From a bacterium (GTDB taxonomy: Bacteria > Elusimicrobiota > Elusimicrobia > UBA1565 > UBA9628), in NCBI GenBank assembly GCA_021806745.1, contig JAJZQS010000014.1, positions 1 through 37,762 of the forward strand: a DNA stretch of 37,762 nt. Reading direction: 5' to 3'. The position numbers and the translations under genes were made by a program. Each line of letters begins with the position of its first letter. The stretch's first letter is position 1. Below the pieces are notes generated by a model. That model ran no database searches. It was not told the DNA's origin and worked only from the letters and a program-made list of their open reading frames with translations. Below are positions 15,957-20,482 of the stretch, one piece after another.

Positions 15957-16346
15957 TTAAAATCCGTGCTCGCGCAGGCCGGAAACGCGCGCCAAGGCCT
16001 GAAAATCCCTGTCTTTATGAAGCACGGCCACGTCATTGCGCAGCGCGCAAGCGGCGATCAAGCAATCGACGGAAGACCGGATGGTCAGCCCCTGGCGGCG
16101 CGCGAGTCGATAGAGCTCGACGGCCCGCTCATAAAGTTCGACGCTCATCGGGGATTCCAGGATCGGAAGAGCGAGCAGGGACTCTCTCGCTCGGCGGTAA
16201 TAGACTTCGTCGCGGATTCCCTGGAGAACCTCCTGAACGACCGGGAGGCAGGTCACGGCCTCGTCGATGTCGAAGGGCGCGCCTTTCCACGACTTCGGAC
16301 CCTTTCGGAATATCTCGACCCAGACGGACGTGTCGACGAGGATCAC
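15957..16346 (-). CDS. vapC: VapC-type PIN-domain ribonuclease toxin
   Basis: A 129-residue PIN-domain protein, the usual VapC size. The acidic active site is complete: Asp5 in MILVDTSVWVE, Glu39, Asp94 in SSVDCLIAACAL, and Asp112/Asp114 in HKDRDF. VapC toxins cut RNA, often tRNA, when freed from VapB. The GTG start overlaps the vapB stop (GTGA at 16343-16346), the classical coupled toxin-antitoxin arrangement. The cellular target cannot be read from the sequence. Confidence 0.9.
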   Translation of the reverse strand: MILVDTSVWVEIFRKGPKSWKGAPFDIDEAVTCLPVVQEVLQGIRDEVYYRRARESLLALPILESPMSVELYERAVELYRLARRQGLTIRSSVDCLIAACALRNDVAVLHKDRDFQALARVSGLREHGF

Positions 16347-16567
16347 CGTCGATTGCGAATGCGGCGGCGCGGCCGGTCGTCGCGCATTTCGGCGAGGTTT
16401 CCCTCCCACGCCCCCGTCCCGGCCAATTCCCAGATGCGCCGCGCCTTCGCGCGACGAACGAAATCATGAAGCGCCATGTCGACGGTCATCGAGAAAGTCT
16501 TGGCTCCGGACAAGGCCACGGCCTCCTGGAGCAACGCCTCGTTAAGCACAAGATTCGTCCGTTTCAT
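16343..16567 (-). CDS. vapB: VapB-type ribbon-helix-helix antitoxin
   Basis: A 74-residue protein beginning MKRTNLVLNEALLQEAVAL, the pattern of the VapB family whose N-terminal ribbon-helix-helix binds DNA (a strand, then helices to about residue 40). The C-terminus (WELAGTGAWEGNLAEMRDD and an Arg-rich end) is the toxin-wrapping part. Three in-frame ATGs lie close together (16582, 16573, 16567). I choose 16567 because the family starts there and because a promoter -10 falls exactly six bases before it. Together with vapC it forms an independent unit between two housekeeping operons. Confidence 0.85.
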   Translation of the reverse strand: MKRTNLVLNEALLQEAVALSGAKTFSMTVDMALHDFVRRAKARRIWELAGTGAWEGNLAEMRDDRPRRRIRNRR

Positions 16568-16583
16568 ACACATAGTGTGCATG
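16565..16583. promoter_or_regulatory. Palindromic candidate VapB operator
   Basis: CATACACATAGTGTGCATG pairs at seven of nine positions around a central base. It covers the candidate -10 and the vapB start codons, the position expected for autorepression by a ribbon-helix-helix antitoxin. Confidence 0.5.
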
Positions 16584-19731: not shown

Positions 19732-19768
19732 CGCTGCCGCCGACCGTGGGGCGCGGCCGACGGCAGCG
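19732..19768 (-). terminator. Strong hairpin without U-tract after the arsR unit
   Basis: In minus-strand RNA, CGCTGCCGUCGGCCG pairs with CGGUCGGCGGCAGCG around a seven-base loop: 15 pairs, two of them G-U. In plus-strand RNA those two positions would be C-A mismatches, so the hairpin suits minus-strand transcription. No run of T follows. It may stop or protect the arsR-unit transcript before the rpsO promoter. Confidence 0.5.
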
Positions 19769-19795: not shown

Positions 19796-20101
19796 CTACA
19801 CGCTCTTTTTTGATTTCGCCAACGCTTGGCGCACGTCTTGCGCGCTCAACTCGCCGCGCATCTCGATGCTGATTTCGCCGCCTTCGTCCCTAACGTCCAT
19901 GGCCGTGACCTTGGCCTTGGCGGCGTCGGACATGCACTCGCAGCGGCCGTGCTTGCAGTTGTCGACGATCTCCTGCACGACCTCCTTTTTGACCGTCTCG
20001 TCGGTGATGCGAATGCGCACGCCTCCGGAGACCTCGCCGACCTCGCTGACGTCCTTCATGGTCCTGGACTTGGAACCGCAGCAGCCGTTCTCGTCGTTCA
20101 T
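19796..20101 (-). CDS. Small cysteine-rich protein next to ArsR, unknown function
   Basis: A 101-residue protein that I do not recognise. Cys7-Cys8 stand near the N-terminus (MNDENGCCGSKS) and a second cluster, Cys49-x4-Cys54-x-Cys56 with His51, reads DNCKHGRCECM. Predicted layout is strand (VRIRITDE), helix (TVKKEVVQEIVDN), the Cys cluster, strands (VTAMDVRDEGGEISIEMRG), helix (SAQDVRQALA). There is no signal peptide, so it is cytoplasmic. The start at 20101 is fixed by a strong Shine-Dalgarno GGGAGG; an upstream ATG at 20113 and open codons beyond it are less likely. It follows arsR by 55 bases and shares its operator-like sequence, so it is probably under ArsR control and may bind a metal or metalloid. 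That is inference. Confidence 0.8.
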   Translation of the reverse strand: MNDENGCCGSKSRTMKDVSEVGEVSGGVRIRITDETVKKEVVQEIVDNCKHGRCECMSDAAKAKVTAMDVRDEGGEISIEMRGELSAQDVRQALAKSKKSV

Positions 20102-20122
20102 AACGCCTCCCATGTATTTCTT

Positions 20123-20133
20123 TTTTGCCAAAT
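20123..20133. promoter_or_regulatory. Second ArsR operator candidate
   Basis: On the minus strand ATTTGGCAAAA repeats ten of eleven bases of the perfect palindrome ATTTGGCAAAT found inside the arsR promoter. It lies between arsR and the cysteine-rich gene, 21 bases before that gene's start, and overlaps a second inverted repeat TGCC-AAATA-GGCA (20126-20138). Confidence 0.5.
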
Positions 20134-20156
20134 AGGCATATTTAAGATCAAAAAAA

Positions 20157-20447
20157 CTAGGCCGTCTTCAGCACCCGGCAGGCGCAGAGGAAAAAGTCCT
20201 TCACGCACGGCGTCAGCAAGGTGTAGACCACGGCGGTGCCGACTCTCTCGTCGTCCACGATCCCGCGGGCCTTGAGCACGGACAAATGCTTGCTCACCGT
20301 GCTTTGGTCCGATCCGACCAACCGCGTCAATTCCCCCGCCGTGGCCGGGCCTTTCTGCAGCCGGTCGACGATGGCCAGCCGCGCGGGATGCGCCAGGGAC
20401 TTGAGCACCTGCGCCTGCTGTTTGAAGCGCCTCGCGACTTCGGTCAT
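20157..20447 (-). CDS. ArsR-family metal/metalloid or redox-sensing repressor
   Basis: A 96-residue winged-helix protein of ArsR size. LKSLAHPARLAIVDRL leads into the recognition region GELTRLVGSDQSTVSKHLSVL and the wing (VDDERVGTAVVYTLL). The classical alpha-3 CxC site (ELCVCDL) is absent. Instead three cysteines sit at the C-terminus, Cys81, Cys88 and Cys90, in TPCVKDFFLCACRVL, suggesting a C-terminal sensing site. The ATG at 20447 lies six bases after a perfect -10 box, so the mRNA is probably leaderless; further in-frame upstream codons would overlap the promoter. The inducer is unknown. Confidence 0.92.
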   Translation of the reverse strand: MTEVARRFKQQAQVLKSLAHPARLAIVDRLQKGPATAGELTRLVGSDQSTVSKHLSVLKARGIVDDERVGTAVVYTLLTPCVKDFFLCACRVLKTA

Positions 20448-20453
20448 GCCCAC

Positions 20454-20482
20454 ATTATATGGCTGATTTGCCAAATTGTCAA
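20454..20482 (-). promoter_or_regulatory. arsR promoter with embedded operator
   Basis: TTGACA (20482-20477) and TATAAT (20459-20454) are both perfect and 17 bases apart. The spacer contains the perfect palindrome ATTTGGCAAAT (20476-20466), so a bound repressor would block RNA polymerase. The ATG follows the -10 by six bases. Confidence 0.8.

Follow-up and report, generated by a model that had tools for sequence, protein, structure and literature searches.

A two-gene arsR unit of an Elusimicrobiota genome as a probable arsenic-response cassette encoding a member of an undescribed arsenic-linked mini-protein family

Analysis of a 37,762-nucleotide stretch of an Elusimicrobiota genome (the window, meaning the whole stretch of DNA analyzed) led to a two-gene unit in which arsR is followed by the gene of a 101 aa mini-protein; both genes, the promoter and both operators are located on the minus strand. 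Judged by sequence comparison, the mini-protein belongs to an undescribed family that is widespread and linked to arsenic. Since this family is found elsewhere inside arsenic-resistance operons, the most likely identity of the two genes is an acquired module for the arsenic response, and we consider it fairly probable that it works as a cassette whose mini-protein binds As(III) via C49, C54 and C56 and buffers it or passes it to a pump. The features of the locus are as follows.

20454..20482, minus strand: arsR promoter, TTGACA-17-TATAAT with operator 1 in the spacer (12/12 consensus)
20157..20447, minus strand: arsR, encoding a 96 aa ArsR/SmtB repressor (NF033788, alignment with 29 relatives, tree)
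20123..20133, minus strand: operator 2, ATTTGGCAAAA, before the mini-protein gene and within 24 nt that repeat the operator-1 region at 75%
20106..20110, minus strand: ribosome-binding site (GGAGG) for the mini-protein gene (sequence)
19796..20101, minus strand: mini-protein, 101 aa, ars-linked Cys-triad family (family HMM, 82.8 bits; alignment)
20078..20083, minus strand: N-terminal vicinal pair C7-C8 (sequence)
19934..19957, minus strand: Cys motif C49-x4-C54-x-C56 (CKHGRCEC), proposed As(III) triad (common to the Alicyclobacillus relative)
19732..19768, minus strand: downstream hairpin, arms 19732-19746 and 19754-19768 (13/15 pairs)

The mini-protein starts at the ATG at 20101, with the GGAGG 4 nt upstream, and its cysteines are arranged as originally predicted, as a CC pair (C7-C8) and a CKHGRCEC cluster. 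Alone, it has no relative in Pfam, NCBIfam, PHROG or PDB, and neither an ArsD model nor an HMA domain appears among its Pfam matches; MTH889, the only PDB hit of the profile search (E-value = 0.13), was not accepted. A weak tblastn match (E-value = 0.07) was obtained with a hypothetical protein which ends an ars gene cluster on an Alicyclobacillus plasmid. The two proteins align over 87 columns with the same C..G.C.C, and the Alicyclobacillus protein was confirmed independently from a Sulfurovum query (E-value = 9e-10). Residues common to this pair, with their spacing and a downstream V-x-x-[ILMV]-[DE]-[VI], were used as a DNA pattern in a scan of 85,000 species genomes, yielding 73 stretches, of which 54 were clear relatives by eye and 19 were chance matches, the latter serving as decoy loci. 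A family HMM built from 53 members, with the window left out, recovered the window ORF with 82.8 bits (E-value = 4.1e-25, profile positions 4-83 of 86) and nothing else significant in the window.

The window protein carries the CxxGxCxC motif as C49, G52, C54 and C56. Invariance of C..G.C.C among the 54 relatives is imposed by the search pattern, of which the three cysteines are part, and is therefore not evidence; its presence in the window and Alicyclobacillus proteins does count, as no Cys pattern was used in finding these two. A terminal vicinal CC occurs in nine of the 54 relatives: three Acidithiobacillus proteins have it at the N-terminus, like the window protein, and six others at the C-terminus. 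Exact 8-mer searches of the genome and viral contigs with the window or Alicyclobacillus protein returned nothing, 8-mers being too strict here, while the phage and plasmid collections gave the Alicyclobacillus relative only; a DNA pattern of cysteines alone hit 34 viral stretches, all of them dismissed by eye as chance. When the alignment of the window protein and its 53 relatives was run against Pfam and NCBIfam, no family was found, and the literature searched (most subscription journals lay outside the search) holds no account of the mini-protein. The original prediction, which could not assign the protein, was thus right as far as curated libraries go, but the protein is no orphan: the profile search it proposed matched no characterized unrelated family, and the protein belongs to an unnamed one conserved in ars operons.

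Concerning gene neighborhoods, 39 of the 54 loci have an arsB, arsC, arsR or aquaporin gene within 1.5 kb against 0/19 decoys, counts which are not independent because most loci are from Campylobacterota; the independent ars-linked lineages are Campylobacterota, Hydrogenothermaceae and Bacillota, plus the window, where arsR is adjacent. At 38 of these 39 loci the ars gene lies no more than 150 bp away on the same strand. The commonest close neighbor is arsC (29/54 within 150 bp, same strand), and the usual order is arsR-arsC-mini-arsB with gene ends often overlapping, as in Sulfurovum. Other arrangements are mini-arsR-arsC-arsB in a Hydrogenothermaceae genome, arsR-arsB-arsC-arsC-trxB-mini on the Alicyclobacillus plasmid and arsC-mini-aquaporin at three Sulfurovum loci. 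Neighbor identities were checked by NCBIfam and Pfam in a sample (ArsB with 628 bits, LMWPc-type ArsC, ArsR and MIP). The known arsRCB and arsR-arsC-aquaporin operons both enclose the mini-protein gene in Campylobacterota, and arsRCB does so in Hydrogenothermaceae, whereas the window has only arsR and the mini-protein gene, with pump and reductase on another contig. The effector for a thiophilic metal, metalloid or thiol stress that had been predicted is accordingly tied, strongly and at the level of the family, to detoxification and specifically to arsenic.

At the remaining 15 loci, all four Acidithiobacillus ones among them, no ars gene was present in the flanking DNA covered. Eight gene copies, mostly from Campylobacterota, lack a close ars neighbor in the DNA covered; some of these may act in arsenic handling on their own or do something else. 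In one Acidithiobacillus locus (L096, 3827-6490) the mini-protein gene directly follows what by eye is an IS21-like transposase pair, which may hint at mobility.

AlphaFold2, run on the family alignment, predicted a beta-beta-alpha, Cys loop, alpha-beta-beta-alpha fold (mean pLDDT 78.6) with CxxGxCxC placed after the first helix; the prediction agrees with an internal duplication that is visible by eye. A Foldseek search of the PDB and viral structures with this model gave nothing below 1e-3. ArsD, the metallochaperone that works with ArsA/ArsB, is a small cytoplasmic Cys protein of ars operons, in which a vicinal CC and a further Cys suit three-coordinate As(III). The mini-protein resembles it in being a small cytoplasmic Cys protein of ars operons with a vicinal CC plus further cysteines that would suit such coordination; however, it has no sequence match to ArsD, its cysteines come in another order, its predicted fold is the one given above, and most of its operons have ArsB or a channel, ArsA having been seen beside it only upstream in Alicyclobacillus. 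It also differs from HMA-type metallochaperones (CopZ/Atx1, HMA domain with CxxC) in having CxxGxCxC and no HMA match.

The arsR promoter has its -35 TTGACA at 20482-20477 and, after 17 nt, its -10 TATAAT at 20459-20454, identical to the consensus at 12 of 12 positions. Operator 1 (ATTTGGCAAAT, 20476-20466) takes up spacer positions 1 to 11 of 17, so that the palindrome is where the original prediction had put it, and the near copy claimed before the next gene is likewise present, at 20133-20123. Two sites of the motif are present in the window (three matches at one mismatch or fewer) against 0.07 expected from shuffles, and the 2.78 Mb genome contains exactly two copies of ATTTGGCAAA, both of them at this unit. 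Conservation in related genomes, suggested as a check, was borne out for the motif: 20 of 30 arsR genes of the lineage, the window one included, have the exact core ATTTGGCAAA[AT] at the same upstream position, and in operator 2 CTATTTGGCAAAA fits the operator core of the phylum's arsR genes. Read from the upstream regions of the 30 genes, the core is part of a larger inverted repeat, TATTTGGCTATTT-GGCA-AAATAGCCAAATA. By this comparison the operator is the native one of this ArsR lineage within its phylum, and the window ArsR would bind it and be released by an inducer. Many genomes of the class carry the same inverted repeat inside the spacer of a TTGACA promoter, and arsR starts there just a few bases further on and is probably leaderless. 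Since the ATG of the window arsR lies only 6 nt past the end of TATAAT, its mRNA is probably leaderless too.

The window ArsR belongs to the HTH_metalloreg profile NF033788 (78.4 bits, cut-off 55). Its cysteines are Cys81, Cys88 and Cys90, and the alignment agrees with the earlier claim that these stand in a regulator devoid of the alpha-3 CxC: ATAGEL replaces the CVCEL of its relatives, and the R773-type CxC..C of alpha-3 is absent. In the 30-sequence alignment, columns 43, 45 and 86, which hold Cys in most relatives, have lost it in the window ArsR (T at 43 and 86), and column 88 (C81) alone is kept; C88 is present in 30/30 and C90 is exclusive to the window. Three-Cys sites are the rule among As(III)-sensing ArsR proteins, and ArArsR of Arsenicibacter rosenii binds As(III) via Cys41, Cys80 and Cys82 (PMC11868830). 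The relatives in the phylum, with CVC and mostly also CPC, match ArArsR at Cys41/43 and Cys80/82 (PMC11868830), but the window ArsR retains just the second Cys of the CPC (C81), plus C88 and the new C90, and lacks the ArArsR-type set equivalent to Cys41, Cys80 and Cys82. Because the window ArsR has neither the CVC of alpha-3 nor the leading Cys of the C-terminal CPC, its sensing of arsenic is not assured, and what this altered regulator would sense is the main and a real doubt about the window. C81, C88 and C90 might together make up a new three-Cys site resembling the triad at the C-terminus of AfArsR, as in both cases three cysteines lie close together near the C-terminus of one chain; the spacing nevertheless differs (C-x6-C-x-C against CC-x5-C in AfArsR) and the window As site is putative.

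In the tree, the window ArsR joins on a long branch the ArsRs of two genomes of the same order (G230 and G233; support 96/88), which head operons of permease-ArsE-like thioredoxin-ArsF-ArsG-ArsC-Acr3. It clusters away from the ArsRs found with the mini-protein in other genomes, so that the mini-protein is paired here with a different ArsR. Most ArsR relatives in the phylum stand ahead of ArsP_1-type permeases, and at loci L162 and L163 of the same order large ars operons behind a single ArsR were seen, with ArsP_1/SaoE-like permease, ArsE-like thioredoxin, ArsF, ArsG, ArsC and Acr3.

The pair fills the 892-bp gap between cinA and rpsO, which measures about 60-115 bp in four sister species of the genus; since cinA and rpsO are adjacent in these, the pair is an insertion. 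Searches by sequence and by profile found the mini-protein in no other of 341 phylum genomes; weak matches there (E-value 0.005-0.1), which were short or inside other ORFs, were rejected as relatives. As rpsO and pnp follow the mini-protein gene, there is locally no transporter or reductase downstream. That earlier observation, with its absent permease, holds for the locus but not for the genome, which has a canonical arsR-arsC-acr3 operon on another contig (C29; L159, 1-2031), with an ELCVCDI-bearing ArsR and an Acr3 of 428.7 bits (TIGR00832) and with no ArsB or ArsP_1 match in the genome. The mini-protein consequently need not be the only effector, contrary to what had been proposed. The 15-pair hairpin said to close the unit exists with 13 of 15 pairs; it has no T run, its fold stability does not exceed that of shuffled sequence (z = -0.09), and as a terminator it is unproven and indistinguishable from background. 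Elsewhere in the window (15957-16582, minus strand), a VapC-like PIN-domain ORF of about 150 aa with a VapB-like antitoxin ORF of 79 aa upstream was noticed by eye.

In the mechanism we propose, ArsR on the ATTTGGCAAAT operator between -35 and -10 would repress the single strong promoter, with a second operator preceding the mini-protein gene. The repressor would be released when the ArsR cysteines bind trivalent arsenic or a comparable thiophile, and the mini-protein would then be made, bind As(III) by C49, C54 and C56 with the help of C7-C8, and buffer it or pass it to an efflux pump, presumably ArsB in most relatives and the Acr3 encoded elsewhere in the window's genome. The analysis itself demonstrates that the protein belongs to the family, that the family is linked to ars operons, that the operator is conserved, that the pair was inserted at this locus and that Acr3 and ArsC are encoded elsewhere in the genome. 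From this we infer As(III) as ligand, its binding at the triad, a role as chaperone or buffer and what induces the window ArsR; capture by the Cys triad with buffering or handing on is the most economical reading of the operon linkage and the motif.

The frequency of arsC as a close neighbor, together with three cysteines that could relay thiols, would also suit a redox or protein partner of ArsC (a thiol relay or assembly factor) that carries no As(III). We regard this as unlikely, given that the mini-protein gene abuts arsB at three loci with no adjacent arsC in the DNA covered, that no arsC lies near the window unit and that alignment scans gave no match to thioredoxin or glutaredoxin families. 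Slightly less likely still is an answer to another thiophile (Cd, Pb, Hg, Cu) or to thiol/persulfide stress, with an ArsR re-tuned after loss of its CVC and the mini-protein buffering the ligand; the Cys losses at columns 43, 45 and 86, the unique Cys90 and the long branch favor it, as does the response of a vent Campylobacterota ars operon to Cd and Cu (PMC10092412), but full arsenic operons stand behind the closest ArsRs, and the family of the mini-protein is itself linked to arsenic.

A larger ars operon could have been acquired and have decayed to arsR and a bystander gene of little present function, as the occurrence in one species of the phylum and a regulator without its known ligands might suggest; the perfect consensus promoter, the intact operators, ribosome-binding site and reading frames and the retained motif residues make this improbable. 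Least probable of all, and by our estimate very much so, is an auxiliary regulator (an ArsD-like inducer-binding protein or ArsR modulator): the mini-protein gene stands beside arsR in the window and at several loci, has its own operator copy, and the DNA-binding MotA C-terminal domain is one among many weak Foldseek matches, yet ArsD and significant fold matches are lacking and several family loci have no nearby arsR.

Arsenic operons are among the best-studied resistance loci. A text search of a 2018 survey of ars genes turned up no small-protein or chaperone candidate besides ArsD (PMC6205960). A broader reading than the arsenic-response cassette, which we put forward tentatively and with more doubt than confidence, is that the family may be a new class of As metallochaperone serving ArsB, Acr3 or aquaporin-type efflux without ArsA, with a small duplicated beta-beta-alpha fold that presents CxxGxCxC for As(III) binding, and that it may move between phyla and be plugged in under the host's ArsR, here as a two-gene arsR-mini cassette. 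Conserved within operons of dozens of species from vents and acid habitats and covered by no family model, the mini-protein is a concrete, testable candidate for a new ars gene, and its compact cysteine site could also be of use for sensing or capturing As(III).
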